Source of the DNA: Kappaphycus alvarezii
Lineage: Eukaryota > Rhodophyta > Florideophyceae > Gigartinales > Solieriaceae
Direction: 5' to 3'
DNA: 64,000 nucleotides
Assembly (NCBI GenBank): GCA_002205965.3
Contig: NADL03000753.1
Span: 310,001 to 374,000 of the forward strand
The position numbers were made by a program, and so were the translations under genes. Each line of letters starts with the position of its first letter. Position 1 is the stretch's first letter. Below are positions 23,317-58,260 of this stretch, piece after piece. The notes below the pieces were generated by a model, which saw only the letters and a program-made list of their open reading frames with translations, made no database searches and was not told the DNA's origin.

Positions 23317-24978
23317 TCATGGAATTTTGAATTCAATTCCGTGTCTAGCAACCCGGTCTAATGCTTTAGATCGACCAATACCATCCATACGTGTCCTCCT
23401 ATGGGCTTGCGCTGCTTCCTCCCTTGCCCTTCTCAGATCCGCGTATATCTCTTTGTCAATTCTTTCTTGATGGCTCTTCTCCTCCAATGTTGCGAGCAAC
23501 TCGATTATATCGCCACCGCTTACCTCGATTCCGATCCTTGTATCGACGAATCCTGCTCGAACGCGAGGAACTGGCATCCCGTCACGCTTCATTTGAAGCA
23601 TGCACGCCCTGCTATCCCTAACGACTGCCTCCAATGGTAGTAAGTCTTTATTCGCGTACGATTCTCGAATTCGGCAACCAACTGCAATGGTAACGTCAAG
23701 GGGCCAAATCCTTGCTCTTCTGAAACCATCCGTAATGTTCTTGACAGTAAAAGCCTTTCAATAGGCCCCTTCTATAGAATCTCAGACATGGCGACCGTAT
23801 AGCTTACACGAGCCAGAAGACAGCTGACATCCGTAGGCCAACGACATGCGCATTACGGACTCATTGGAATAATGCTTTAGAGGACCAAAAACAGATACAC
23901 CAAGCGGTTGCAAACGATCACTTGTGTGAGCTAGTAGAGCTACAGCGGCAATTAGAGCATTTTTCATTTGGTTAATTACACTTGAATGTAAATGGGAGCG
24001 ACAGGAATCAAAGAACACAACAATCCATTCTTCCACAGGATGCTTAGCGCGGACGATATTGATGAAGATATATACCCATCTTCTGAAAACGTTTCCGTCG
24101 ATGCTGCCAACATCGCATCGCCAAAACGGAAAACAGCCTTCGGGCATCACGTTGGATAATTTCCCCGAGCAAACCCCGTTGTGTAATCTTGGCTCACTGC
24201 AAACATTGGAAACCGCTACAGGAGCAACAGATTCTCCGCTTGCGCTGACACAGAACAAAAGGGAAATACGATTCACGTACTGAAAGTCGAAATTCTGCCA
24301 GGTTCCTCTTACACCGGCAGACGTAACAACTTTTCTCCCTTTCTTTCCGACTAAGTCCCTCCCTGGAGGAAATCCTGTTTCATCCAGATTGTAAACTTGG
24401 AGAGCAGACTTAATATTGTAGTGTCCATACCGCAGCTCCACCTGGGCGAAGAACTGGGTCGCAAAGTCAGCATTGAAACATTGAACAGGAAGCTGGTCGA
24501 CAGGGCGGGCCATATTGAAACTTAATTTTTCTGCACGGCGAGCAAGAAACCGTCGAAACCAGAAATCAGAAAACTTGGCTTGACGAAGTCGTTTAGACGC
24601 CGTGTCGGCTGTTTTCATCTCATCACGGTATGTACGGGCAATGTCGCATATTTCTTCGGAGTCCAGATACACATGCTTCTTGAGACTTTCAATCGCTCGT
24701 CGTACCACCTCTTCTTCCTGTTCCTCCTTCAGTACCTTGGCAACATTGCTTCTCCTAGAGGTGATAAAAACGAACCATTCCTGTTTTTTTTGCACTTCCG
24801 GCGGATAAAGGTACCTCCACCGCTGTATATTTGAATTCGACAACTTGAACTGAGTATCAAAGGTCCCTTCCGATACCTTGCGGCATGATTCACCGGCGTG
24901 AATCTTCTCCAGAGCAATTATCAACGCATTGCATGCCTTTTCTGCCATTGCCTTTGTAGCGAAAAGAGTGTGAGTCAT
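23317..24978 (-). pseudogene. pogo/Tigger-type DDE transposase with two in-frame stops
   Basis: A single minus-strand frame from ATG 24978 to a stop at 23317 gives 554 codons, normal for the family, broken only by TGA at 23784-23782 and TGA at 23760-23758. The N-terminus has an HTH-like region and a CENP-B-type second half (FWFRRFLARRAEKLSF, about residues 139-154). The DDE_1 core has YNLDETGF (Asp199), VVFFDSCRSHL (Asp324) and RLQPLGVSVFGPLK. In active relatives the last block is QPLDV..F.PLK, so the third catalytic Asp is Gly360 (GGT, bases 23901-23899). The spacing D-X35-G shows the position is the right one. After the stops the frame continues KAFTVKNITDGFRRARIWPL, the usual NI..GF...GI.P block, and a charged helical tail. 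It could be a recently inactivated copy. Domestication is unlikely with the stops. It is flanked on its 5' side by a short tandem repeat. Confidence 0.85.
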
Positions 24979-25045
24979 GGCCTACATGGGATGCCTGTAG
25001 AGTGCCTGTAGATTTTGCAGTGGTGGAGGGATAAATAGGGTGAAA

Positions 25046-26770: not shown

Positions 26771-27074
26771 TGTTGAAAGGGCAGCACGCATACGAATAGG
26801 ATTGCAATGGTCGTGAGCTGGGATTGAAATCGGTCGTCGGAGGTTGCACTGTTGAAATGCAGTAGGTGTTTATGTGAGGTTAGCATTTGAACTAACTGCT
26901 TTTTGCGACTGCTAGGATATTTGAGGTTGGTTGAGAGTACTGAACTCACAGTGATGAAGTTTTCGGCACCAAAGTTGTGCTCTTAGTGCACAAATTTACT
27001 GAGTCAGTAAAGTTGTGTGTTTGTTTGTCTAAGATACGCAAGCTCCGATCTCTCTGCACCATTTTCTTTTCATA
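26771..27074 (+). repeat. 5' LTR of the copia element
   Basis: 304 bases, TGTTGAAAGGGCAGC to CTTTTCATA. It aligns along its whole length with 31120-31399. It holds the element's promoter. No clear TATA box was identified by eye. Relative to the 3' LTR it has 23 extra bases near 27000 (after GCACCAAAGTTGT). Confidence 0.95.
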
Positions 27075-27089
27075 GGTTATGGGCCCAGC
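27075..27089 (+). promoter_or_regulatory. Primer-binding site for initiator tRNA-Met half-molecule
   Basis: GGTTATGGGCCCAGC lies directly after the LTR. It is complementary to the anticodon stem and loop of eukaryotic initiator tRNA-Met (which contains CUGGGCCCAUAACC), not to a tRNA 3' end. Drosophila copia and some yeast elements prime with such an internally cleaved half-tRNA. I infer the same mechanism here. Confidence 0.85.
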
Positions 27090-27115
27090 GGAACGTGAAG
27101 CCTGGAAGTAACAAG

Positions 27116-27835
27116 ATGGACACGAAGTACACTATCGAGAAGCTTACGGACAAGAATTTCCTGGTCTGGTCCACACAAGTACAACTGGTCCTAGAGGCGA
27201 AGGACCTTTGGAAGTATGTTGAAGACAGCTACAACCCAGCAACGAGTGAGTCAGGAAAAACAAAACAACGTCAGGAGAGACGCCAGTGCCTTGCCGAGAT
27301 CGTTTTAAATATTGACACCAAGCACGTGGCAACCGTCATGCGCAAGTATTCGCCAAAGTCTGTGTGGGATACATTGCAAGAAATGCACAAAAGTAAGTGC
27401 AAGGCTAGTCAGTTGACGCTTCGGAAGCGTCTGTTTGGACTCCAGATAGAAGAGGATCAAACGATTGGAGAATTTGCTGACTCGATTCACCAAATTGAGA
27501 ATGAACTACACATGGGGGGCTATGAAGTTTCAGACAGTGACAGGAAGCTTGCTCTCCTTGGTATGCTTCATGATGAGTATGAGATGGTGGAGACTATCAT
27601 GCGAGGAGAAGATGGCCTATCATTCGAAGGAATGGTTGCAAGACTGGAGGCACGTCAGGATGAGATCGGTCGGGCAAGTGGCAGACGAGAAGATTCAGGT
27701 ACACGCGAGGGTGCCAAGGGTGAAGACTTTGTCGCAGGGAATCCTCGCAAGAAAGGAAACAAGACTTGCCACCTTTGCAACAATAAAGGACAATTCGTCA
27801 AAGATTGCTTCTACAATCCCAAATCGAAGAACTGA
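27116..27835 (+). CDS. copia gag (UBN2-type gag with one zinc knuckle)
   Basis: Structural protein that packages element RNA. Start chosen at ATG 27116 (MDTKYTIEKL), which is followed by NFLVWSTQVQLVLEAKDLW, the classic opening of copia gag. The further ATG at 27017 lies inside the LTR. The middle has the SVWDTLQEMHKSK and LRKRLFGLQIEE blocks typical of the family, then EFADSIHQIENEL. The zinc knuckle is at 27767-27808 in the form C-X2-C-X4-Gln-X4-C: the expected His is Gln (CAA, 27791-27793), which should impair zinc binding. The frame ends at TGA 27833-27835, but the same frame stays open into the protease. The TGA therefore either separates gag from pol or is a disabling mutation. 239 residues. 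Confidence 0.9.
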   Translation: MDTKYTIEKLTDKNFLVWSTQVQLVLEAKDLWKYVEDSYNPATSESGKTKQRQERRQCLAEIVLNIDTKHVATVMRKYSPKSVWDTLQEMHKSKCKASQLTLRKRLFGLQIEEDQTIGEFADSIHQIENELHMGGYEVSDSDRKLALLGMLHDEYEMVETIMRGEDGLSFEGMVARLEARQDEIGRASGRREDSGTREGAKGEDFVAGNPRKKGNKTCHLCNNKGQFVKDCFYNPKSKN

Positions 27836-28183
27836 AAGCCAAGCCTGACACCTCCGGAGAAGGTTAAGGAGAAGCTTGTCCAGTGGAAAGATAGCAGCAG
27901 TGGAGGCTCGGGGTCTGACGACTCACCCTCAAAAGCTAGTTTTGCTTTCATGACATCGAAGGATGATGAAGGCATTCGGAATAAGTGGTTTTTGGACAGC
28001 TGTGCAAGCCGTCACATGACCAATCAAGGCAACATCCTGTACAACTACATCAACAGACGCGATAACACTGTCCGAACGGCAGCAGAGGATTCGGAAATGG
28101 AAATCGTTGTATATGGGTCAGTTCGTCTTGTGCAAGTAGTCGATCGAAAGAAGCAGGTAATTGAGCTCAAGAAGGTCTCATAA
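27836..28183 (+). pseudogene. copia protease region
   Basis: Continues the gag frame after the TGA. KWFLDSCASRHMT at about 27983-28021 is the copia retropepsin active-site block. The family form is DSGA, here Asp-Ser-Cys (GAC AGC TGT, 27995-28003), so the flap-side Gly is Cys and activity is doubtful, though the catalytic Asp is kept. A Ser/Asp-rich linker precedes it. VRTAAEDSEMEIVVYGSVRL and VIELKKV follow as in other copia proteases. TAA at 28181-28183 then interrupts a block (V-stop-MPNIRKKLMSL) that is continuous in relatives, so this is a point-mutation stop, not a natural end. Confidence 0.85.
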
Positions 28184-29110
28184 ATGCCTAACATCCGCAA
28201 AAAACTTATGTCACTTCCTTTGGGACAGGCCGCGGGCATAACTTTTGAATTCCCAGGTGGGTCAAATGTGATGGAGGCTAGAGTTGAAAATGCGAAGCTA
28301 ATGGTCGGATCAAGAAAGACACATAGAATTACAGAGCTAGCTGGGATGAAAGCAACGGGACGGAGGGAAATATCGTACTTCAATGCAGGTTCCAGTAATA
28401 GGGAGGAACTGATGCACAAGCGCACATGCCATACCGCAGTCGACGCGCATCAAAGGATGATCAGGACGAATGCAGCTGACGATTTGAAAGTATTGGCAAA
28501 CAAGGCTGATGGGAACCATGTTTGCAAGGAATGCTGTGCAGGAAAGGCAAAGTCCAATACCCACAAACGTCACGAGAAAAAGGCTAGTACAGCCCTCGAA
28601 CTGGTGCATACAGACATGATGGGAGCGATCACACCAACTGCGCTGGATGGATCGAAGTACAATCTGTCGTTCATTGATGACGCTTCTGGCGTGGCAATGT
28701 ATGCGCAGCTGGAGAAGAAGTCGAAGGCAAAGGAAGCTCTCATGGCACTGATTGAAAAGCTTGAGAACAAGACGGGAAAGCACCTGGGACAGGGCGAGGG
28801 AGTACATGAGTAAGGCACTGGAGAGTTAATTTGACTCGAAAGGCATTGGGCACCAGCCTACTCCGCCGTACCCCCCAGAGTCGAACGGTCGAGCAGAAAG
28901 GTTCGACCGGACAATCACTGAACGGGTGCGAACTATTTTGGAGGAGCTACATGCACTGAGCAATTTGAAAAATCACAAAATTTTGTGGGCTGAAGCATTG
29001 AATTCAGTGTTGTATGTTTACAACCGCACGTCACAAACGCGACTCATCCCTCATTTCGAGACAAGACGCCCTACGAGATCATGACAGGACGCAAGCCAGA
29101 TCTTTTAGGC
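28184..29110 (+). pseudogene. copia integrase, multiply disrupted
   Basis: The frame 28184-28813 starts with PNIRKKLMSL (end of the protease linker), then the pre-integrase zinc finger (LMHKRTCHTAV, CKECCAGKAK), then the core: ELVHTDMMG with the first catalytic Asp, and FIDDASGVAMY. A small deletion at about 28785-28790 shifts the frame just before the second Asp block, and reading continues in the next frame (DRAREYMSKALES). TAA follows at 28827. Past it GIGHQPTPPYPPESNGRAER carries the catalytic Glu, then RVRTILEELHAL and VLYVYNRTS. Two further frameshifts near 29065 and 29108 break the tail (TPYEIMTGRKPDL). All three catalytic residues are present, but no continuous frame joins them. Confidence 0.85.
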
Positions 29111-30663
29111 TGCGAATATTCGGCTGTGAGGTGAAAGTCAAGAAACCAGATCGCTACCGCCAGGACAAGTTCGATTCGAAGGTTTGGGACGGTATAAATG
29201 TTGGTTACGACGGCATTAAGGCGTCTCGCATATTCTTTCCTCAGTTGAAGCGGGTTTTTGTATCAAGAGACGTTACATTCATGGAGGGAATCCCGAAAAA
29301 ATTGGGTGCTCCAGCAATTGACAATGCGGAAGGTCATGATACAATGGACATTCCACCAGCAACGACAGTGGAAGTTGATGATCAAGAGGATAGCAGTGAT
29401 GGGAAAGCTGCTGTAGATACACCGGAGGACCAGAAAGTGCCACCAGTTGTCAGAAGAAATCCGTCTCGCAACGCTGGGAAACCGCGACGTTACGAGGACA
29501 ATGGCATGTTGGCATTCCTCACTGCACAGGAAGTAAATCAAACAAGTGACATGAATGTCCCCGAGTCTTACGACCTGGCTATGGGTAGTGACATGAAGGA
29601 AGAATGTACTCATACGATGGCGGAGGAGATGAAATCGATCATTGAGCGGGAAGTATTTGTACCAAGATATCTCCCGGATGGTAGGAAAGCCGTCAAGTCA
29701 CGGTGGGTCTATGCCTTGAAGGAAAATGCAGAGGGCAAGGTCGTTCGTAGGAAGGCACGATTGGTGGCAAAGGGGTTTACTCAACAGAGAGGCATTGATT
29801 ATGACGAGTTATTCTCTCCAGTGGTCAAGTTTGAAACTGTTCGATTCTTAATGGGAATGGTGGCACATTTCTGCATGCACTTGCAACAGGTAGATATTAA
29901 GACAGCTTTTCTATATGGCAAACTTGATGAAGAACTCTACATGGAGCCGCCGCAGATTCCCTGCCGCCTTTGGAAAAGGTTCAATGTAGAAAGTTGGAAA
30001 AACAAGGTTTGGAAATTGTTAAGGGCCTTGTATGGACTAAAGCAAGCCTCGAAGGCATGGTATGAAGCATTGAAGGCACTTCTGGAATCTTGCGGATTTA
30101 TGCAGTCCACAGCAGATCCTTTTCTGTGGAAGCTATTGAACGATCGCGATGGAATAGCGTACCGATTGGTTTATGTGGACGACGCGCTCATTGTTTCGAA
30201 AAGCTTGGAGCTTTGTGAAAAGGTCAAGGGTATGTTGAACAAGGCCTTTGAAGTTCATGACCTTGGAGATGCGCGCTACTTTCGCGGAATTAAGATCACA
30301 CGGAACGGAACCTGTGGGACTCTGACGCTGACACAAGCACGATACGTTGAAAAAGTTCTCAAGAACTTTGGAATGGAAGATAGCCATGGAGTGCACATAC
30401 GAATGTACGCAGGTATGAGTCTACCAGTTAACTGTAGACCACAAGTGGCTCTCCCATATCGCGAATTGATGGGATGTCTGAAGTATGTGGCAGTAAGTAC
30501 TAGGCGCGACATCATGTACGCAGTGTCAACTTTGTCAAGGTATCTTCACTGCTACGGCGAACAGCATTGGAAAGCTGCGAAGCATGTGCTTCGATATTTG
30601 AAGCGGACAGTGGGCTATGGACGCGAACCTGGATGTGAGGTAGTTGGATACACCGATGCCGAT
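29111..30663 (+). CDS. copia reverse transcriptase, open frame
   Basis: The long open frame runs 29014-30666. Its first 30 or so codons are out-of-frame integrase, and true homology starts with LRIFGCEVKVKKP (end of integrase). An acidic linker follows, then the RVT_2 domain: SRWVYALKENAEG, RLVAKGFTQQRGIDYDE, VDIKTAFLYGKLDEELYM (motif A Asp, residue 294 of the open frame), LYGLKQASKAWY, and YVDDALIV at 30172-30195 with both catalytic Asp. KKYVAV-like MGCLKYVAVSTRRDIMYAVS and AKHVLRYLKRTV lead into RNase H. No residue expected to be catalytic is missing. TAA at 30664 ends the frame within RNase H. This is the best preserved enzyme domain in the window. Confidence 0.92.
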
Positions 30664-31110
30664 TAAGTTGGTGACAAGAGCACACGCAAGTCGACGGGTG
30701 GGTTCGTGTTTACGATTGCGTCGACGGCATTCAGTTGGAAGTCAAGTTTGCGGAAGGTTTTCGCCGCATCGACGATGGAAGCTGAATACATTGCAGAGGC
30801 ATTGTGCACAAGGGAAGCTATTTGGGTTCGAAGACTCAAGAGCAGCTTTGATCTTGGCAATAAGGCAATTGTCGTTAAAACGGATAACAAAATGGCGATT
30901 GGACTGGCCGAAGATGCAAAAATTACGCAAAGTAACAAACACATTGATGTGTGCTATCATCTCACCAGGGATTATGTGAAGAAATGATCTATCAGTCTCG
31001 AGCATACATCATGCAGTAGGTTGGTCGCGGATTGTATGACTAAGCCTTCTGACAGGACAAAATTCGACCAGCTTAGGATGATGTTGGGAATAGTGAGATC
31101 TCTGCGAGCT
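30664..31110 (+). pseudogene. copia RNase H and C-terminal tail
   Basis: TDAD (30652-30663) is the RNase H opening motif. TAA at 30664-30666 interrupts it, then the same frame continues DKSTRKSTGGFVF, SSLRKVFAASTMEAEYIAEA (catalytic Glu), VKTDNKMAIGLAE (catalytic Asp) and NKHIDVCYHLTRDYVKK. A TGA at 30985-30987 follows, and the frame goes on through LVADCMTKPSDRTKFDQL, the usual AD.LTK..... tail. Both stops are substitutions inside conserved blocks. The C-terminus reaches the polypurine tract. Confidence 0.85.
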
Positions 31111-31119
31111 GAGGGGGAA
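31111..31119 (+). other. Polypurine tract of the copia element
   Basis: GAGGGGGAA directly abuts the TG of the 3' LTR, the site where plus-strand DNA synthesis is primed. Confidence 0.9.
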
Positions 31120-31399
31120 TGTTGAAAGGGCAGCACGCATACGAATAGGATTGCAATGGTCGTGAGCTGGGATTGAAATCGGTCGTCGGAGGTTGCACTA
31201 TTGAAATGCAGTAGGTGTTTATGTGAGGTTAGCATTTGAACTAACTGTTTTTTGCGACTGCTAGGATATTTAAGGTTGGTTGAGAGTACTGAACTCACAG
31301 TGATGAGTTTTTTGGCACCAAAGTTGTACTCAGTAAAGTTGTGTGTTTGTTTGTCTAAGATACGCAAGCTCCGATCTCTCTGCACCATTTCCTTTCGTA
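31120..31399 (+). repeat. 3' LTR of the copia element
   Basis: 280 bases, TGTTGAAAGGGCAGC to CCTTTCGTA, followed by the CATTT target duplication. It lacks 23 bases present in the 5' LTR and differs by a few substitutions (for example TTTTTTGG for GTTTTCGG). Because both LTRs are made identical at insertion, the differences accumulated afterwards. Confidence 0.95.
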
Positions 31400-34218: not shown

Positions 34219-35006
34219 CGCGTTACTGTGTTGACCCGACAAACGGCATGTTGTGAGCTGTTCTGGAAACACCAAGCGAGTGCAATGCCTGTTGCTTGAG
34301 CCGTTTCGTGCAGTACCCGATGCAGTAGAGCGGAGGATGAGGAAATGCAATGCTTTCGGATGCAACGGATCGCAGTACTGTGTAATTGTGACGTCAGCGG
34401 GAGGTTTCTTTCGCCGATTTTGTCAGGATGCATGTCGTTTGATCAAGGGGCGCTGTGAATTGGCGAATAATGCTTTCAGGGGAGGCATGAAGTAAGTGTG
34501 CAGCGCAGTCTAACCAGCCACCCGCCAGTTTTATCGGGGGTTGATGCTCGGCGTGTAACGAAAAAATGAGAAATGGGTTACTGGTGTGCAAGTGGTGCCC
34601 TGTTTCGCCATTTGTAAACTCTAGATTTATCTGAAAAGCAAGGGAGGTGTAAACTCATGCACAAACTGCCAAAATGGATAGCAACGGTTCAGAACAGAAT
34701 AATGTACAGTATGTTTGTACAGTACTGTGGCAGATATCGGCTATTTTTTGAAGTACAACAGTGCATCCAGTTCCGTACCTGTCGATGTCTCTATCGTAGT
34801 ATGGGCAGTACAGTAAAGTACTGTACTGTACGTACAGTGACCTAAAGTCTTGTACCCTCCGTGCTCTGTAGGACCCTGACAACACCCAGGTTACTGTCAG
34901 GACTAGCTAACCACTGTAAGGTGGAGTGCTTTATTACCTAGGGTCTCGTCGTCCTCTCAAAGACACAGAATTACCAGTTCCTTTTTCAATATCCCTAATG
35001 CCGCAT
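34219..35006. other. No recognised gene; dense TACAGTAC palindromes
   Basis: 34700-34850 has about ten GTACAGTA/TACTGTAC words, including a TACTGTACTGTACGTACAGT palindromic run. The frame 34253-34495 plus is open but unrecognised. Confidence 0.4.
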
Positions 35007-35090
35007 GGTTTCGATAAATCGAAAATAGGCACTTTCGGGGGCCGACCGACCCCTCCCGGAAAAGGCCTTAATTTCGATATATCGAAACTA
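35007..35090. repeat. Imperfect 84-bp palindrome built on TTTCGATAWATCGAAA
   Basis: The two arms GGTTTCGATAAATCGAAA (35007-35024) and TTTCGATATATCGAAACT (35072-35089) each contain a near-perfect palindrome, and they are themselves inverted around a centre near 35048. The inner arms ACTTTCGGGGGCCGAC and GACCCCTCCCGGAAAAG also pair. TTAA at 35068-35071 directly precedes the second motif. The motif recurs at the far side of the composite element (39399-39414), which suggests transposase-binding terminal repeats. Confidence 0.7.
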
Positions 35091-35125
35091 TAGGGCGTTT
35101 TCTGGTACTCAGTTAAAGAGGCATT

Positions 35126-35911
35126 GTGGAATACACGCATTGGTGTACAATCTGCAAAGGGCGGGTTTCGAATGTCAACAGTAAACTGTACTACAGACAA
35201 AAAACTGGCGGCCGGCCGATGAAGATCCATCCCGCTATGACATCTCCAACTTCACGTTTTCTCCCATCTGGACTCCAGATCCAACCAGCAGACTACTCCC
35301 AACTCTCTGAGATTCAAAACAAATTGATCGCCTTTTCCCCTCCTACCCGATCCATGTTCGCGCTGTGATTGGCTTCATCTTTGCTGCTGTACCTCCTCTC
35401 CCCCTCGTTGGTCCTACTCTCCCCTTCGTTACAGCCCCTCATACTCTTCCTCAGCTCCCACTCCATCAAAAATCTGCTCTCTCCCATGTCCTTCCCCTTC
35501 AGAACCAATTTGAATGAGGCGAATGCACCGCTCATCTTTTTCTCTGATCCCTCATCTCCCCGAGGTTTCAGATCAGCAAGAGTACGCGCTGCTCCTAATT
35601 CGCCATCGGAGTCAGAAGACAACATTCATGCACCTTTTTCACCGTTGCCTGCTATTCAGCCCTATTCACCACAGAATCATGATTTACAAACCGATTACGA
35701 ACTGGAGAGAATACTCGGGCAAAGAACGCCCTCTCTGCCTGTCGCATCTCTACGATGTTATGTAAGTGACCCGATCCGAAACTCCCAAACGCTACGTCCT
35801 CCTAATGTGGCTCAACAAGCTCAAAATAATCCTTTATTAGAACAACTAAACAGAGAACAAGAAGGAATTGAAAGTGTAACACCGCGAGGACCAAGAAGGA
35901 GGAGAGGATAA
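35126..35911 (+). pseudogene. N-terminal region of the composite transposase
   Basis: One plus-strand frame with a single TGA at 35366-35368. It is Ser/Pro-rich and contains an acidic SESEDN patch, LQTDYELERILGQ and NNPLLEQLNREQEG, ending in a basic GPRRRRG run before TAA. PiggyBac-type transposases usually begin with an acidic disordered region, which fits, but there is no named domain. The evidence is its position and orientation immediately upstream of the DDE part. A minus-strand frame (35314-35625) overlaps it and is less likely because it is shorter and isolated. Confidence 0.4.
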
Positions 35912-36220
35912 AGAGCGAGGGGACGATGAAGGGGTCGCGTCAGGAAGGGTCGCGGTACTAATGTTACAATAAGGTAAGAAACAAGTCGTAGAGAATGTTC
36001 AGATCCGAGTGCAAGGTGGAGAATACAAAATTCCCCGCCATTCAACATAATGGATGAGAGATCTTTTAAAATGTCTTCTTTCTCCCAGACGGCTCGACTG
36101 TATGGAGGAACAGTTGTTCGGAGAATGGAAATTGAGTTTAAAGCTCTTTAACTAGGCAACAGGAGGTACTCATTTTTGCGGATGTTTGTGGATGACGCTT
36201 TATAAATTTGTTGTAACTGG

Positions 36221-36907
36221 ATGAATGAACGCACTGCGCTCAAAATGGTGAAACTTACACGCCTTCAGATTTGGACGATGCAGTGTTTCCTCGCTGTTTT
36301 TCTGCTGTCATCGACTACTATGCTCAGCCTCGAGGGAGACGCAGAAATACTTAAGCATATCATTGGCTGTTGCCTTGATCTCGATGAAGCGAAGTCTATA
36401 CTTTACAACATGCTGTCATTTAGTTCAACTGGATCTGGGAATGACAACAACAGGGTTTGGGCAACTCAAAGGGATCTTACGCACCTTATTGGAGAGTTCG
36501 AAAGAGTCGCTTTTCAGTCATCTAGAAAGAATTTTCTCGATACAAGCAATGGATTCTTTACATTGGACGATGACCTTTTCGGTACACGTGCGTCCGACAT
36601 CCAGCTCAAAACTTTGAGCAACAGAAATGCCGACCGAGAAAGACGCACGGCTGATATATGTAGTAACTCATTATTTCAAGTTGTTCTTCAGGTACGCTTC
36701 CGCCGGCGTGGTGAAATACTTGAGGAATCTGTAGAAAGAATAGGAGAAATGATTTCGGAAGGAAGAAGGGACCAGGCCCTGACAGGAATGATTGTCACAA
36801 TTGACAGGGGATACACTAAAATGAAAGTGATCGAGAAATTGAGCGTTCTGGGTATTGGAGTACTTGGAGTTGTAGAATACCGCTTCAACTCCATTCACCC
36901 TTTGTAG
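36221..36907 (+). pseudogene. PiggyBac-like DDE (DDE_Tnp_1_7) transposase region
   Basis: 228 open codons. FFTLDDDLFGTRASD (Asp116-118) occupies the place of the first catalytic aspartate, followed by NRNADRERRTADIC and VVLQVRFRRRGE. VTIDRGYTKMKVIEKL (Asp195) matches the second, the DRGY/DRGF block of PiggyBac-related transposases that sits on a beta strand before a helix. GIGVLGVVE...NSIHPL closes the segment. In PiggyBac the enzyme cuts and pastes at TTAA without leaving footprints. The third acidic residue would fall after the stop at 36905 and I cannot place it. Family assignment combines these blocks with the C-terminal Cys-rich domain 1.6 kb further on. The DDE part alone would give lower confidence. 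Confidence 0.6.
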
Positions 36908-37311
36908 CGCAATCTAACCTCAACCCCAAAACGGCAGGAAAAGCCTATCTTGATAGCGATTCGGAAGATGAGAATTGCCGGTTCGAGAACATCCTGAAAG
37001 ACCACCCAAGCAGTCCTGTACTTTTCTATTGTAAGAAGCAGACGGTGGGAAGAGAGGGAAAATCTATATCACTTCATGGTACTGCCGTCAGAGGATACGG
37101 TAATAAAAAAGCTGCTCAAGTTTTGCGGCTTTATCGTAGCGTTCCACCCGCGTATGGTGACATCTTTTCATACTGGATAGCGGTGCATGACACAACGGAG
37201 CTACATGATCACTTTTTCTCAAAGAGGGACGACAATGGCCGTATACTCGCCCCCAACGGGCACGATGACTCGGAAGATTTTGGGCTAGAAAACTGGTTAT
37301 ACCTGCACTAA
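36908..37311 (+). pseudogene. Conserved spacer domain of the composite transposase
   Basis: After a frameshift the plus strand reads AYLDSDSEDEN, ILKDHPSSPVLFYCKKQTVG, then in the 37045 frame REGKSISLHGTAVRGYGNKKAAQVL, LYRSVPPAYGDIFSYWIAV and a charged KRDDNGRILAPNG tail. I do not recognise the fold. It is nevertheless clearly protein-coding, because a diverged copy (50830-51100 minus) keeps the pattern FYxKK...G(R)xG...(L), N(K/I)AA/S and YGDIFS(Y/F)WIAV. It ends at TAA 37309, and the same frame continues into the nuclease. Confidence 0.6.
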
Positions 37312-38509
37312 ATAGTCCTCACGATTACTCAGAGAACTGCGGACTGGTTTGTGCAAAGGAGTTTCAAGGTGACTGCGACTTTCGCTACTGAGTTATATCA
37401 AAAGGAACAGCGACTTGTGTCGTCTCTTCAGCATGACAAAGAAAACTGGAGACTGAAAAGAGTTTAAAGACTTCAGTTCCGTTGTTACTGACAGTTGGCT
37501 CGGCAGAAACAGGGCTACAGAGCCAGTGATGCGCGGTACAGTTAATGGGTCCGCGGTGTTGTCAGAACTCGGGAGAGAGAAGTTCGTCATGTGTGTTCGT
37601 CAATGCGATTTGGTTGAATGCAAACAAATAGAATGGGCAGCAGCCTCACCTGATGGTGTATGTTCATTGAACATCAAAGATTGGCGGTTTCTTTCGGAAT
37701 GGTATGAGGATGACAATTGAAACGGAATCCCACCGTCGATGGCATTTATTGAAATCAAGACAAGAGTTGAGGACTCATCTGTTCGACAGGCATTGCCACA
37801 TGCTGACTCCCGCTTTCATTGTAAGATTGTGTACGACGAATCCTGTGGATTGCTTGTTCCGCTCCCGCATAGATTCAAAATGCTGCACCAGTCTGTATGC
37901 TTGGACCTTGACGCAGGAATTTACATAGGCGCCTCTGAGAGCCAGATACTATATAAAGTGTTGGTTATGTTTCCGGAAGATGTTTTGGAAGGAGCCAAGA
38001 GGTGTCTAAGTAACCAGTTTCGAGATCAATTTCGTTGGATGTATTCATATGTATTTTCTGTTCCAAGTTTTGTGGACAAAGGGCACAAGATGATAATGCT
38101 ATCCCAGGTGGAGTTGTGGAAAGCGGTCCGTGACTGTGTGCAGAAGGATGGGCATATGCGTCCGGTAAGGCTCTTCAAGCATAGCTCTCAGAGCCTTTAC
38201 AGTGCTACAAAAGGAGTTGTTGACACTGCCGCGCACATAAGCTCTATTCTATATAGTCCAAACACCCATTTAAAATGAAGACAGAAAGTGGTGAATCACA
38301 TTTTAAACAATCTCACGCAAAACGCGTTCGTCGCATGGAGAATCCTGCACTGCCGAGATAACCTGTCGGACAAAGACAGCTTCAGGTCTCTAGATAATTT
38401 TAGAAACCATCTCCGGAAAACGAAGTCATTTGCAGACTTTATACTAGATTCTTGTGCTGGCCTTGCTAAGATGCCCTTGAAACAAAGAGAAATCATAGAG
38501 AAACCTTGA
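37312..38509 (+). pseudogene. YqaJ-type PD-(D/E)XK nuclease domain
   Basis: QRTADWFVQRSFKVTAT (37330-37380) matches the opening T..W...R..R.TAS block of YqaJ / lambda-exonuclease-like nucleases. After a frameshift near 37440-37470 come RATEPVMRGTVNG and LGREKFVM, then AAASPDGV with the catalytic Asp (37652-37654) and, 32 codons on, FIEIKTRV with Glu (37751) and Lys (37757). S/T-P-D-G followed by E-I-K is the signature of the fold. YqaJ enzymes are dsDNA exonucleases used in recombination. A TGA (37718-37720) sits between the two halves of the motif and another at 38276-38278, but the frame 37526-38509 is otherwise continuous. The C-terminal half (LYKVLVMFPEDVLEGAKRC onward) is helical and unassigned. 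Confidence 0.6.
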
Positions 38510-38841
38510 TTGATGTTCAAGGTTCCAAAGCAAAGCAAGTACAGCTAGAGTCGCGTAATTTGAATAGCGTGGAAGTACAGAGAATCACTGAGCTTGCAGC
38601 AAATAGAAAGCCAAGAATTTGTTTCTTCAATTCGGAGGAAGGGACAAAACTACAGCTGGATGTGAAGGGAAACAACCCTTTACATAAGAAGATTCAGAAG
38701 TATTGCGCTCTGTGTGGGTTAAATGTTGATTCCAAGGCTCGTGGAAAGCGTACTGTTATCATTTGTAGCCATTGTCACGTCCATCTATGTGTCAAGAAGG
38801 CGGTATGGTATCGAAAAAGCTGCTGGGAAAATTGGCACTAG
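38506..38841 (+). pseudogene. PiggyBac-type C-terminal cysteine-rich domain
   Basis: YCALCGLN, then KRTVIICSHCHVHLCVKK and KSCWENWH, give C-X2-C ... C-X2-C-H-X-H-X-C ... C-X3-H. This matches the RING-like zinc domain at the end of PiggyBac transposases (C..C...R...C..C.V.LC...C...YH), which binds the terminal repeats. It is preceded by NNPLHKKIQK. Its frame differs from the nuclease frame by a shift near 38506, and it stops at TAG 38839. It supports the PiggyBac assignment of the upstream DDE part. Confidence 0.6.
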
Positions 38842-39268
38842 TAAATAGGTTGAGGGAAAGGAAAGCAGTTTATGGTAGTAAAATAACTGCAACAGAAGGG
38901 AATGATAAAGATTATCATGATAAAGATGTAGGGGGACGCGATGCAAGCGAGAATAATGAGGATAACCAAAGAATAAATGTAAAAACGGAGCAGCAGAAGC
39001 CTGTAAATCGTAGTAAGGAGGCTCAAGGTCAGCATATAATTGGAGAGGCATAAAAGGATATCATTGAGGAAAGAGCACCCGAAGAAGTAGATGGATCTGA
39101 TTTCTTAGAGTTGTTGTAAGGCATGAAAGTTGTTGAAGATGGAAACTCTGCTAAACGGGTTGCGATCATCGCAACATCAATTGCTGCCGAAGAGGGGATG
39201 AAGACAAGATCCAAGCGAAGGAGAGTTTCTGGGAAGATGCCGAGAAGTGGGAAGGTCGTGAGGAAGTA
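38842..39268 (+). pseudogene. Basic C-terminal tail of the composite transposase
   Basis: A single frame (from 38772) runs to TAA 39266 with stops only at 39051 and 39117. It is Asp/Asn/Lys-rich and ends in TRSKRRRVSGKMPRSG, a likely nuclear localisation signal. It lies one frame off the cysteine-rich domain. Hydrophilic and without a known fold. Confidence 0.35.
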
Positions 39269-39394
39269 ATCTATTGTTTTTTGGTTATTTTTTTATCTAT
39301 TTTGGTTTGGATAAATCGAACCATGGTAAGGTTCGAAAAATCGAACATTATAATTACGATAATTGCCGTAGTTTCTTTATTTCGAAATTACTAG

Positions 39395-39414
39395 TTAATT
39401 TCGATAAATCGAAA
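39395..39414. repeat. Right-end TTAA plus palindromic motif
   Basis: TTAA followed by TTTCGATAAATCGAAA, matching the left-end arrangement at 35068-35087. Weaker relatives lie at 39306-39321 (ATAAATCGAA), 39331-39346 (GTTCGAAAAATCGAAC) and 39601-39616. Confidence 0.6.
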
Positions 39415-41869
39415 ACAACTGAAAACTGGGTCCTTCGAGAGCTCTGGAAATAGTTCCCTTAGCCTCGTTTATCTCTTGGTCAACCTCGGTTTAAGTGGAT
39501 TTCTTTGTAGATCACAGAAGATAAGACTGGGATCAGGGTTCTGACTGGGTGAGGGGCCCTGAAGACGTCGGTGCTGCACTTTCTCAAGGCGTAAATTTAG
39601 TTTCGAAATATCGATACCAAATCAGTGGCATTAGGAATATAGTTGTCATCCAACTACAAAAAGACTTTCCTGACCTCACCCGCGAGCAGGAAGGAAACTT
39701 TCACCTAAGAACGATTAGGACAAAGACCTACGTTAAGCAAACATTCGTCCGCAAGCAGGCGAGTATGAGCAAAACCAGACCCAGGGTATCACGAAAGTGC
39801 GCAAAAAAGTGCAGACCGTAAGCCTACAGGAGCATACAGTTGTGCAACTCCGCTATTCATTAAGATTACTCGGAAATTTAAATCACATATCTCAAAGGGG
39901 CTCAAAGGAAACGATCAGAAATAGCCAACGCAGGAGAGTTCAATGACGCGGCACGTGATAAAGTCATTGAGGACACGAGCACAATGGGTTCCCAGGAAAC
40001 GACCTATTCGTAAGATTCGAAGAAGACTCTAAAACAGGAAACGTAGTTAATTAAACCAACACTTCAGACGGAAGGTGAAAGACTTTTTAGAGTCAAACGG
40101 AGTAATGTATCGGAGAGAAACAGAAGATTATATCTAGAGACGACTTCTCCGTTTGCTTGTATACAGGCGAGCCACTAACGCCAGCAGCCCAGCGTTAGAA
40201 CTGCCTTCTCTTGACGCTTCACCAGGACCAGGATCGGCGTATCAAGCGAAAAGAGACTTCTTGAGATCCCCACTATGAGGAAGTGAGAAATAATTAATAC
40301 CTTAAGACGGACCCATCAAATGCAGAGTTAGAAGAAACTCAATGCAAAATACGAAGCTTTTGAACTATCATATTATCAGCGCATAACGCTTCGTGTTATG
40401 TTCAGAAGGGTGAAATTTGGTGTGTTATTAATCCATGAAAAATATGGTCAGCTGTTCCCTGAGGGATGTTGTGATGTGGGTAAAGGCTTCCGAAGTGATG
40501 CCCTCTGCTGTTTCACAGACCACAAGGTTCCGACTGAAACCTCAGTGAATGAAGTTTTTGCCATAATGATTGACTGTGGCATGACCCCAGCTCATAGAAA
40601 GAAACAAAAGATAGAATTTAACACGTTACAATTTCCTGGGATCAAGCGTAAACACCCCGCAAACCTATGTCGAAAGTACTGGACCTTCTGTACCAGCGTT
40701 GAAGGTATACAAAGTCTATTTCGAACCCACCGTATCATTTATCACTCTTGATGCGGGATTACATAGTTATAGTGTTCAAATCAAGGTCGTTTTTATTTCT
40801 TTGATAACTTCTGAGATATTCACCGATCTAAACACAATATAAACTCCTTTCTGACTGTAGTTTAATGCGTGGCGCGCAGTTTTTCTCGTCTAAGTATGAA
40901 ATTACCTCAGAAAATGGGAAAATATCACATACACACCTGGACTCACATGGTTTTCGCTGTTACTCTTTCTCTTTAAGCACCCTGCGGTGCAGTAGCACAG
41001 TACGCTGATGGAGAGGAGAGGTTTGGCGGGTAGAGTTGGGCTGATTACTTGGACATATTAATGGTATAATTTTCTCCGGGTTGTAAGGCCGGGCCGGGTT
41101 CCTCTGAATTTAATAACCTTGAGAAGAAGCTAGTCTGAAGAACCGTGGACACCAGACGTTAATTTTTGGACAAAAAGAGATGTAGTAGTGGGTCATCAGA
41201 GCTGAATATCTCCTCTGGAGATAAGACTGTTGTCACCAACGACAACCTTGAAGTTATTGTCTTTGTAAAGACGGCTTAATTCCGGGAACTAAGTGTGAGT
41301 AAGTATCAAAGGCGAAAAATGAAAGGATTAGTATAATGCGAGATACAGAGTATTCGGGGAAGTCGGGTGGATAAACGTGGTTATAGCCAAAGTTGCCGTT
41401 GGTATGTTTATTGCAAAGGCGGAAATTGGTAGCCAAGTGTAGAGCCAGCATCGGGGCGGCAGTTTGTTTTGGTTCCCTAGTGTCCAGGTATGTTCCAGTA
41501 CTAGTTATACAGGTCAATGTTATCTATGACGTTGATGTATGTAAAGTCAATGTCAGCCACGTAATAGAGATCCAAGTTAGAGATGATTATAGTTGGCACT
41601 TGACCCAATAGGTGCCTTTCTCCTGCGAAAACATCAGGTCGAATTTGGGATCCGAGTGGTCCGGACTGCCTGCCATCATACCCACTCGGATTAAGACCAA
41701 TGGTGGTCGACAATCGAAAAATCATCCTTATTGTACAGTACCAGGTAGGAACTGTGCTCCAGCATGAGCAAAAATAGATCATAGAAATATGACTAAAATC
41801 AGCGCTGCCGGTGGGAGAAAAGTACGAGTGCCAATTGCACTACAAGAAATCCAGACAACCCCGAACTGC
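39415..41869. other. No recognised gene
   Basis: The frame 40398-40751 plus (117 codons; LLIHEKYGQLFPEGC, TDHKVPTETSVNEVF) reads like protein but has no domain I know. A preceding stretch (about 40330-40400) may belong to it. The frames 39549-39821 plus and 41254-41517 minus are also unassigned. Confidence 0.35.
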
Positions 41870-47720: not shown

Positions 47721-50700
47721 ACGGGCTTTACGGGCTTAGGAGATTTAGGATTTAAAACCCTAAAATTATAAACCACTGATCTCATAGACGGGGTTATTGG
47801 GTACTTTGCTGTCATCAGAATTTCCTCATAGTTCTTGACCTAACGTTTTAGCCCATTGTTACACTTGGAATATTTCAGAGTGAATTGCACACTGGGATAT
47901 TTTATCACTGTTTTACCAGTCAAAATCTTCCTTGCTATCTCTTGCCACCTGGACCAATGTAAGTCTTTTTTATTGCGAGCTTGTTTCACTCTTGCTAACT
48001 ACAAGTTTCGAGAGCGCTACTTATGATACTTTCGGAGCTGTTTTACAGGAAATATTTGCATTTGCTACTTTTAGAATATGTTTTTCTCCCGCAGTTATCT
48101 ATTTACAGTTATATGTAAATCCTATTATGGAGTGGCCGACTCAACTCAGCCAGCCTCAACCCATAGTTCAACCAAAGTTCAACATATTTTTCCCCAACAC
48201 CCACATTTGTCTGGTGAAGACGATAAAAGAAGGAAGAAAATAAAAATTACGCTTCATCGAAAGTAGATATAATATTTTAGATCATTTATTAATGCAGCTC
48301 TGGCTGAAAAGCTACGAAAATACGAGTGTTTCACCACCAGGTCACCTGGCAGGAACAAGATCGTCTCGACTTCTATTTCTAGGTTTGGAGAGTTGCGCCT
48401 AGGTGCGTTTTCCATCACCAAAGAAGTTTCAACAGATAGCACCAATAGTCTAGCGTGAAGGAAATTCTACCTCAACGACACGCCGCGTTGATTGCCATCT
48501 CAGATGCGGAATTCTTGCTGACGGGATATCAGCCACTTTTGTGTTTAAAAATAGCTCTCTTACTCGTCCACTATTGCGGATACTGAACAATGGTTTGAAT
48601 AAAAATCTATAGTACTGCAAACCTTTGCAGAACTCGCAGTTAACTAGCATAACTTATCGTGGGGAGAAAAAAATGCAGACCCAGCGGATCCCCAGCTTAC
48701 TGCTCTCCCATACTCCATAACATATCATCCCTAAACTAAAAATGTGCCGGGCACACAGCTTACGTATAAAGGAACTGATGAAAGAACACCGTAACTCTCT
48801 GATCGGCCTCCAGCAAAAGTCCACCGTAACTGACACACAACGTGGAAGACTGCCTCAGATTTTTTTGAAGTTGATATTACCAACGATAGTGGCCGGAATT
48901 ACTTGCGAGCCTATTCTTAAATTCTGCACAGCAAACATCTGCCCAACAAGCGACGCAAGGCCTCACCGAGTGCCATCGGCCTGATTTGCCCATCCAGTTT
49001 CAGAGGAGCCCAAGAAGTTAAGCGAAAACTCTAAAAATGAGATTGGGTTGCCGATCTGGAGGATTCAGAAATTATTTTTGAGTAGAATGAGAAGATAGCG
49101 AGCATATTTGACTGTCATGTGTGACCCCATGCCTCAACACTGCGACTAAAACCCATTATGTGTTCAATCCTTTCTCTTTGACAGAAAGCCATCGTTATAT
49201 CAACAAAATTAATCATAATAAATCAACTTAAACCATGACACTACGATGGTCGGGACTTTGCTAACCGGGTTGTGACCGGCATTCCCGCACGTGCACACAT
49301 TATGGTTTCTGAGGCGTGGCAAAACCCGTTCGCTCTTCACTTGGTGAGAGACTCGTCCATAATAACGCCATTAATATGTTGTAAATTGTTTCCAGTGGCT
49401 CCTCACAAAAAAGCATTTATATTGCTGGAAGAAAATATCAAGTTATATCCCTAATGCTGCTTCCATGGATCGATATATGGAAACAAATTTCGAGCCTGAA
49501 AAAGTTGCAGAAGGTCTCGGAGCTATGTCATGGACTTTCGAGATGGTGTACAGGGCATTATATTCATATGAGAAATGGCAAAAGTTCCTGGTTGCAATGC
49601 TTTATTACTCCGAAAAGAGTATCTTTAGATAAGGGGTCAGATACTCTTAAAACATGGAGGCTTTCATTGTATTCCCCTTTCGATCTATTGAACATAACCA
49701 ACAATTATATTTGTCGAAAATAAAGGAAAATTATGTAGTGTGACCGTTTTCTGGAGAACCTCCCCACGCTGATTCGATTATGTGACTATTTTTCATCAAC
49801 CGCAACTTAGTCCTCCGCAATTTTGTTAGGGTGAGCACTATACCACCCCTTCCAGCGCGATCAAGCACTGTAAAATTGGGTCCATTACCCCGCCTCCCTC
49901 CGTCGCCGCACCCTTATTCACCGAGCGACGACTCTAGCCAATTTCACGACTGTCGTGCTGACTTCTTTCGCATTTGCACTCCCACCCCTTCTCTTTTCTA
50001 AAATCTTCCCCCATTCGCATCGTGTCTCTCCCTCATTCCCGACGGCGCCCGCTCTCCTCTGCATTTCCCCTTTTCCTGTACGCTCTCTCCACTCTTTAGC
50101 ATCAGGGCTCCTCAAACCCTTTTGGTATCAGAATTTCTCCCTCCTCTTCGAGATGGCGCTCTTACCCCTCTATATTTAACCACCCGCCTTGAGATTGGTG
50201 CATAATGCCAGATGCAAAACTTACAATAAATAATTCGAAAGAATACAGTAAGATCATGATACTACACAGCTCTATCTTCCGCAAAAAAAGTCGTTCTGTG
50301 GATGATGGAGTGATTGTTCAACATTTTCCTGCACCTCCGGTTTCGATTTCCGAAAAATAAGCCAAAATCGTTTTGAAGACCCGCAGCTCAAGAATTTTAA
50401 GGATTCTGCTCATTCAAAAACTCACAAGGTGCGTCAGGAGAGGAGTCAGTCCGTAATAAATCTTACAACCTGCCGAATGAAATCTGAAAACCGCTGCCGC
50501 TGCCTGTTTCTTATCAAATTATGACAAAATAACACTCCCATTCATGTTTTCACTCTCCACGGGTACTTTTTTTTATTTTTTTCAAACAAGATGTCCACTA
50601 GATATTCATATTAGTTCTCAGTGGACGTAATATTATCCTCAGTAACTTGAATTCCGAGCACTAGCTTGCTAAAAGTATAAATTTACAGGATCGATTCCAC

Positions 50701-50829: not shown

Positions 50830-51100
50830 TCATGATATGGCCCGAAATCTTCCCTTCCACAATAACGTCTGATCCTCAAAACGTTCAGGCTGAGAAACCG
50901 CTATCCAAAATGAAAAAATGTCTCCGTAAAGTTGTGGAGTTGAATGAAAAAGCCGGAAACGTTTTGAAGCTATGTTGTTCCCGTTCCCACTGACAAGTAA
51001 TGCATTTAAATCGACACTGATCCCACCTCTTCCTTTCATTACTTTCTTAAAATAGTAAACTGCAGTTCCTCGGAGCTTTCATCCGCAGATAGTAGATCTC
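50830..51100 (-). pseudogene. Second, diverged copy of the composite transposase (spacer segment)
   Basis: The minus frame 51039-50830, extended upstream to about 51085 across one codon of overlap, reads VYYFKKVMKGRGGISVDLNALLV, then NNIASKRFRLFHSTPQLYGDIFSFWIAVSQ. This aligns without gaps to VLFYCKKQTVGREGKSISL and KKAAQVLRLYRSVPPAYGDIFSYWIAV of the element at 35-39 kb, with about half the residues identical over the best part. Flanking DDE and nuclease blocks were not recognised in the decayed surroundings. It shows that this spacer is an inherited protein segment of a repeat family. Confidence 0.6.
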
Positions 51101-53327: not shown

Positions 53328-53475
53328 TGTTAATTTTCTCCTAGGTGACTTAGTCGATTCGACTAAACGCAGGTACAGTGCAGTAAATTGGTTTAACTAT
53401 TCACCCCGGTTTCCCTATTCTCCATGTCATTCCACTGCCAGTCCTTCACCTCCCCGAACCAAATCAAGCGATCAA
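53328..53475 (+). repeat. 5' LTR of copia-like copy 2 (right edge approximate)
   Basis: Matches 58083 onward in its first 75 bases. It contains the AGTCGATTCGACT palindrome and a GTACAGTGCAGTA word. No primer site was recognised after it. Confidence 0.6.
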
Positions 53476-58082: not shown

Positions 58083-58260
58083 TGTTAGACATTTCCTAGG
58101 TGCCCTAGTCGATTCGACTCAACTCGGGTACAGTACAGTAAGTTGGTCGTCAAATATTTGTGTCGGTGACATAGCCACCCACACTATACATAGTCAAAAT
58201 AGTTCAATGATGCAATTTCCTTTTTAGGCTCCCCTTATAGGTAGTGCTTCCTCTATTAGA
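58083..58260 (+). repeat. 3' LTR of copia-like copy 2 (right edge approximate)
   Basis: Begins TGTTAGACATTTCC directly after the purine tract and shares its first 75 bases with the 5' LTR. Beyond that the similarity fades. Confidence 0.6.

Follow-up and report, generated by a model that had tools for sequence, protein, structure and literature searches.

Can a transposase hold a second DNA-cutting enzyme inside its own catalytic domain? The question is raised by a locus of the red alga Kappaphycus alvarezii within a stretch of 64,000 nucleotides of contig NADL03000753.1 (labelled C749 here), which we call the window. An initial annotation had placed a PiggyBac-like transposase carrying a YqaJ-type nuclease at 36221-38841. 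These limits are too narrow, as the element is a 4,644-bp transposon relic at 34993-39636, with ATAT on both flanks and the ends CCCTAATGCC...GGCATTAGGA. It is probably the relic of a piggyBac-related cut-and-paste transposon, in whose transposase the RNase H-like domain encloses a YqaJ-type PD-(D/E)XK nuclease, located after the second catalytic motif (D2) and before the third (D3).

The window copy is dead, with coding parts interrupted by stops and frame changes and pieces lying in different frames. All motifs named in the initial annotation were found on the plus strand in the order given there, and SPDG and EIK lie in a common frame that is interrupted between the two by a single TGA (37718-37720). 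Pfam scans of the window-copy pieces yielded no credible family, including no match to YqaJ or PF13842. As a control, all six frames of 100 sequences, each of 64 kb and generated by a first-order Markov model, were scanned with patterns picked after inspection of the sequence. The core W...R..[KR][IV]T[AG][ST] and the Cys/His pattern each occurred in 0 of 100. Of the other two patterns, SPDG-to-EIK and DRGY, each turned up in 3 of the 100. Judged by these patterns, the motif set is unlikely to occur by chance, and its conservation among paralogues is the stronger evidence.

One reading frame in related copies

The genome searched for relatives comprises 336 Mb in 884 contigs. Match counts refer to stretches, of which one copy may give several, among the candidates scored, and are hence minimum values. 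The spacer query (P0001) gave at least 60 matches at E ≤ 0.001; this segment is conserved, as the initial annotation had proposed, and spans the region from D2 to the nuclease. Twenty stretches of ~10 kb around spacer matches were taken from the genome. At locus L045, spacer and nuclease occupy a single open frame (P0002, 345 amino acids), which as a query gave at least 121 matches. The L051 query (on C450) gave at least 84. At least 150 were obtained both with P0006, from the C terminus, and with the D1-D2 piece (containing the first and second catalytic motifs). The order of the parts is identical in many loci, which demonstrates a conserved layout. Pattern scans of viral contigs, one scan of prokaryote genome contigs with two peptide patterns and a spacer-only scan of phages, all of which reach mainly close relatives, found no family member. 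The window also holds an older second fragment of the same family on the minus strand, with a spacer piece at 50869-51075 (44% identity across 64 residues); its right end, CCCTAATGCT at 49445-49458, adjoins ATAT.

The initial annotation had inferred that the parts once formed one polypeptide and had proposed a search for an uninterrupted open reading frame (ORF); both points were borne out, as reported, by a copy on contig C513. Its D1-D2 match (1170865-1171227) is 92% identical over 121 residues and lies in a 958-codon stop-free frame. The spacer and YqaJ match (1169800-1170855) and the Cys/His match (1168726-1169262) are likewise reported in the 958-codon frame without stops, and the reading frames of the three matches agree. 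The 406 bases read between the nuclease and the Cys/His part are open in the shared frame and encode the D3 motif YSKTKAGVDGATQQRAILRSATSHFKWEQKIVSQVLKTVAINGFFAWRMFQ, followed by a linker to the Cys/His domain. D1-D2 and YqaJ also have a common reported frame on C4 (867 codons, in the region 786341-789660) and C504 (595 codons, in the region 342547-344997), and further long frames lie in the regions C697:250590-254063 and C749:1078741-1082202. L051 was read completely; its 975-codon frame starts with an N terminus rich in RG and continues through D1 (LDEDLYGTR) and D2 (DRGY) into the spacer and the nuclease. We dropped L051 as an intact copy upon finding a frameshift at its D3 motif, owing to which the last codons of the 975-codon frame are out of frame, and a stop ahead of its Cys/His domain. 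Overall, the sequences support a single predicted polypeptide that comprises the transposase parts, the nuclease and the Cys/His end in this family.

A probable YqaJ-type domain in a piggyBac-related transposase

When the genome was searched with PF09588 (YqaJ), four places scored above the curated cut-off (22 bits). Three of them (C669:1141030, C690:13350 and C488:653089) overlap P0002 family matches. The fourth, C58:369316-369879 (-), was treated as a stand-alone YqaJ gene until a family D1-D2 match emerged on the same strand 639 bp upstream (370518-370844). By these overlaps and neighbours, all four above-cut-off YqaJ places of the genome are assigned to this transposon family. On single members, PF09588 matched P0002 (E = 0.026) and P0004 (E = 0.18) in register. 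Related profiles gave TIGR03033 (lambda-exonuclease family) on P0002 with E = 0.0022 (18 bits, far short of its cut-off of 68), phrog_434 (RecE-like exonuclease) on P0005 and P0002 with E = 0.0013 and 0.00047, and phrog_149 (exonuclease) on P0004 with E = 0.0016. The earlier view of the SPDG/EIK segment as YqaJ/lambda-exonuclease-like agrees with these four profiles on relatives. Two of the 48 alignment members match PF09588 at E ≤ 1, and this is the sole family of 16 with more than one matching member.

The putative active site is largely retained among the copies, with the SPDG aspartate present in 20 of 25, the EIK glutamate in 23 of 24 and the EIK lysine in 19 of 24 (L024 was excluded as the same locus as L049; the near-duplicates L032 and L035 were both included). 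The motifs RG..NE, SPDG, EIK and H/Q recur in distant subfamilies. We compared the proportions of nonsynonymous (pN) and synonymous (pS) differences in 14 pairs in total. Three between-subfamily pairs of the YqaJ part had pN of 0.34-0.42 against pS of 0.79-0.88. The corresponding pN was 0.27-0.35 for DDE (three pairs), 0.40 for the spacer and 0.20 for the D3 region, with pS of 0.79-0.93, which is saturated. Because pN is well under the saturated pS between subfamilies, both the DDE and nuclease parts were constrained during the active period of the lineage. Six close pairs had ratios of nonsynonymous to synonymous rates (dN/dS) of 0.66-0.96, except one spacer pair with 0.39, which fits decay after insertion. 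The nested domain thus looks like a YqaJ/lambda-exonuclease-type domain with a putative nuclease activity and role.

The position of this domain was determined from the third catalytic motif. Segments of D3 type (in this family of the form KGGVD...W...NAF) were found downstream of the nuclease, e.g. YSSxKGGVD.AAQMRSxLxSxSTHLKWGxKVVxxILxTLTQNAFVAWR, and resemble the D447 motif of piggyBac. Profile A5 was built from ten D3 segments, including that of the window copy with TGA read as W. Among 177,635 PDB sequences, it ranked Trichoplusia ni piggyBac first (E = 8e-4, aligned at 438-502 including D447); piggyBat came in third place with E = 1.2, which by itself is not significant. Both alignments are in register. 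A 25-segment D3 profile gave piggyBac 20.2 bits, compared with at most 1.6 bits from 200 column-shuffled profiles, and placed both piggyBac and piggyBat above 4,000 shuffles of the two. Since the D3 motif lies behind the nuclease, the nuclease is located between D2 and D3. The initial annotation had the order of its motifs right, whereas its placement of the nuclease after the DDE domain does not hold. We had also considered that the nuclease might lie between the DDE and Cys/His domains, with GDSFSYW of the spacer as D3; the KGGVD motif behind the nuclease led us to abandon this arrangement. The nested position is that of the insertion domain in piggyBac, Tn5 and the P element. Phmmer searches of the pieces against PDB found nothing relevant, and neither did profiles A2, A3 and A4.

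The distance between D1 and D2 is 79 residues in the family and 78 in piggyBac (D268 and D346; PMC2533014). The Cys/His alignment (A4) has the pattern C..C, C..C, LC, CW..WH, and the domain of L051 matched PF13842 (zf-Tnp_2) with E = 0.0034 and 18.3 bits. Canonical piggyBac is also present in the genome, with 119 PF13843 matches, all above the cut-off, in a search in which weak candidates were scored only in part. By-eye comparison showed that none of these 119 places overlaps the at least 121 family matches, the nearest pair being 3.1 kb apart on C715. Six full-length PF13843 matches that we measured span only ~1.14-1.28 kb, so that they have no room for a nested nuclease. One canonical copy (C749:293526-294539 (-)) lies on the same contig, ~15 kb left of the window.

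The ends were surveyed in 26 stretches (20 ten-kb loci, 2 window stretches and 4 short loci). With at most one mismatch, CCCTAATGCC was found at 11 left ends and 10 right ends, and ATAT stands beside 10 of the former and 9 of the latter. Seven further matches were discarded as internal or unrelated, and L032 and L035 seem to represent a single insertion that was duplicated. In L033 and L041, a host repeat is present in unoccupied form; it reads CCTCATATGAGG and contains ATAT once. L049 occupies this repeat and has ATAT on its left and TAT, one base short, on its right. The end of the element in L040 is at the same ATAT of this repeat. The joined flanks of L038 gave 41 genome rows, of which 33 span the junction, and at an empty site of this type on C634 (L053) the 18 bases read are TAGGGGCAATATAATTGC, with one ATAT. 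The single ATAT at empty sites therefore demonstrates that ATAT (4 bp) is duplicated upon insertion. Separate family copies (L038 and L043; L049, L040 and L046) share both the host repeat and the ATAT at which they are inserted, which suggests a target preference or favoured repeats.

The piggyBac rule combines CCYT ends with a TTAA target (PMC5601938). The family agrees with the first part (CCCT ends) and departs from the second. Palindromes close to TTTCGATAAATCGAAA occur near both element ends. The palindrome bound by the dimer of the cysteine-rich domain of piggyBac is at bp 17-33 of the left end (PMC7351741), and by analogy TTTCGATAAATCGAAA at bp 17-32 is a likely candidate for the site of the Cys/His domain. 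With piggyBac (Trichoplusia ni; 6x67, PMC7351741) and piggyBat (9c0f), the family shares the D1-D2 spacing, the KGGVD...W...N[SA]F third motif, CCCT ends, a 4-bp palindromic duplication and the left-end palindrome, and its C-terminal Cys/His domain is a candidate counterpart of theirs. In contrast to them, it has ATAT instead of TTAA, no PF13843 match and ~200-300 residues of YqaJ-type nuclease between D2 and D3. The designation as PiggyBac-like therefore holds in the sense of a relationship, for which the D3 profile speaks, and the family is piggyBac-related rather than canonical because of the missing DDE_Tnp_1_7 match and the ATAT target.

Several observations weigh against this interpretation. 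On the piggyBac side, the target is not TTAA, Pfam DDE_Tnp_1_7 (PF13843) matches no family member tested, and the D1-D2 profile ranks piggyBac no higher than shuffles. The PF13842 match of the Cys/His domain is under its cut-off (24 bits), and for the same piece NCBIfam prefers the DmmA family (E = 0.0019, far below the cut-off). On the nuclease side, the YqaJ matches of single members are weak, and the unrelated Imm19 matches one of the 48 members at 0.017, which is as good as YqaJ. The nuclease profile A3 found no lambda-exonuclease structure or other nuclease in PDB. L051 has SLDG in place of SPDG, and with saturated synonymous sites the pN/pS values only bound the constraint. Finally, the letter-by-letter reading of the C513 frame covers the 406 bases only, and a longer C513 match (query 1-910) was reported with two stops and a length of 1,192 codons. 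The stops could be explained by a position upstream of D1, but 1,192 codons do not agree with 958.

Possible roles of the nested nuclease

By analogy with piggyBac, the Cys/His domain would bind the end at its palindrome (bp 17-32), and the three-aspartate (DDD) site would cut at the CCCT ends and join them to the ATAT target, a joining that would yield the observed 4-bp duplication. The nested nuclease would adjoin the DNA junction, because the insertion domain of piggyBac lines the target channel, and there it may remove flaps at the donor break or shorten its ends. We tentatively propose two active sites in one catalytic unit, in which the nuclease would act at the DDD-made junction (on hairpins, flaps or by resection) and couple excision to a repair route; this is quite possible, though short of probable. 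Among the roles considered, active processing of ends or flaps is most likely, an idle DNA-binding domain is next, and long resection for recombination is third. The initial annotation had suggested that flap processing or homologous repair at the donor site might be promoted.

In the second of these roles, the nuclease fold would be catalytically idle and kept for DNA binding or positioning during ordinary piggyBac transposition. This is rather unlikely, even though the insertion domains of piggyBac and Tn5 are not nucleases and that of the P element binds GTP (PMC7351741, PMC7776569), and although the SLDG of L051 and the absence of the aspartate in 5 of 25 copies would fit it. The glutamate and lysine are mostly kept even in decaying copies, and the whole set of nuclease motifs is recurrent among distant subfamilies, which argues against an idle domain. 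In the third role, the nuclease would resect the donor break and thereby lead to homologous repair from the sister chromatid, so that the donor site would regain the element. YqaJ and lambda exonuclease serve recombination by single-strand annealing, and the abundance of the family (at least 121 and at least 150 matches) would be in line with such a gain of copies. However, the free toroid in which lambda exonuclease is active would be difficult for a nested domain to assemble, and we regard resection as slightly more doubtful than the idle domain.

Two further explanations concern the architecture itself. The locus might be a composite of two neighbouring genes or of a YqaJ sequence inserted by chance into a piggyBac relic, and the window-copy pieces do lie in different frames. 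The common order across many loci, the 975-codon frame of L051, the 958-codon frame of C513 over all parts and the presence of D3 downstream of the nuclease in the same frame make this highly improbable. It is just as improbable that the element is an ISL2EU transposon of the PHIS superfamily, a known group with a YqaJ nuclease. These eukaryotic DNA transposons also combine a DDE transposase with YqaJ, and most autonomous candidates encode the two in two ORFs (PMC4482050). In ISL2EU, YqaJ has a separate ORF, a THAP domain is present and the duplications are AT. In contrast, the nuclease here is nested, in one frame, with an ATAT duplication, CCCT ends, a piggyBac D3 motif and a Cys/His end, and no THAP domain turned up in the Pfam scans made. 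We rejected membership in ISL2EU on the ORF layout (one frame in C513) and the duplication (ATAT versus AT).

The nested arrangement of a piggyBac-related transposase and a YqaJ-type nuclease can be compared with two other systems. The P element transposase also has an enzyme-type domain at the insertion-domain position of its RNase H-like domain. In the P element this domain binds GTP and is described as unique in that respect among those known (PMC7776569); here the domain is of nuclease type, and the transposase families differ. KolobokP likewise combines a DDD/E transposase with a nuclease in a DNA transposon; that nuclease is a His-Me finger homing endonuclease, and the transposase superfamily and nuclease fold differ from those described here (PMC9587614).

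No piggyBac-YqaJ fusion was found among the titles and opening parts of abstracts listed in searches of openly accessible literature. If the nested domain indeed works as a nuclease, it would, to our knowledge, be the first insertion domain with such an activity. The way in which RNase H-type transposases deal with ends and targets depends on their insertion domains, and a nuclease at this position would link two DNA-cutting chemistries within a single enzyme. A piggyBac-related lineage with ATAT instead of TTAA also bears on the coupling between target choice and clean excision in a widely used genome-engineering tool. Active copies, should they exist, would allow a direct test of what a nuclease contributes to donor-site repair.

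Features of the window copy and other elements in the window

Table 1. Parts of the transposon relic, numbered by position in the window.
Feature	Position	Strand	Remark
Target site duplication ATAT, left copy	34989-34992		Duplication established at unoccupied sites for other copies
Left terminal inverted repeat CCCTAATGCC	34993-35002	+	
Palindrome TTTCGATAAATCGAAA, bp 17-32 of left end	35009-35024		Candidate Cys/His-domain site, by analogy
Second subterminal palindrome	35072-35087		
N-terminal coding remains MSFPFRTNL..., basic stretch, broken	35486-36151	+	Resemble N-terminal ORF of locus L031; by position match RG-rich N terminus of L051
Catalytic part with D1 and D2	36206-36907	+	
D1 motif LDDDLFGTR	36563-36589	+	
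D2 motif DRGY	36803-36814	+	
Conserved spacer, D2 to nuclease	36910-37305	+	
YqaJ-type nuclease, start	37312-37467	+	Stop TAA directly upstream
Nuclease motif QRTADWFVQRSFKVTAT	37330-37380	+	
YqaJ-type nuclease, core	37457-37900	+	Family assigned via relatives
Nuclease motif RGTVN	37532-37546	+	
Nuclease motif SPDG	37646-37657	+	
Nuclease motif EIK	37751-37759	+	
Nuclease motif HRFKMLHQ	37868-37891	+	
Third catalytic motif YSATKGVVD...(stop)RQKVVNHILNNLTQNAFVAWR	38198-38341	+	Downstream of nuclease
C-terminal Cys/His domain CALC...CSHC...LC...CWENWH	38572-38838	+	
Cys/His motif CALC	38704-38715	+	
Cys/His motif CWENWH	38821-38838	+	
Two degenerate subterminal palindromes	39306-39346		
Subterminal palindrome TTTCGATAAATCGAAA	39399-39414		
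Right subterminal palindrome, bp 21-36 from right end	39601-39616		
Right terminal inverted repeat GGCATTAGGA	39627-39636	-	
Target site duplication ATAT, right copy	39637-39640		

Other elements were recognized in the window, with their families read from the translations. A copia-type retrotransposon at 26771-31395 has two direct repeats of ~299 bp (89.6% identical) and Gag-Pol-like ORFs at 27011-30666. An ORF of 399 residues at 23782-24981 (-) resembles DDE transposases of the pogo/Jerky type, and one of 256 residues at 851-1621 resembles a retroelement integrase. Finally, a 54-bp direct repeat (53339-53392 and 58094-58147, 87% identical) contains the palindrome TAGTCGATTCGACT in each copy.

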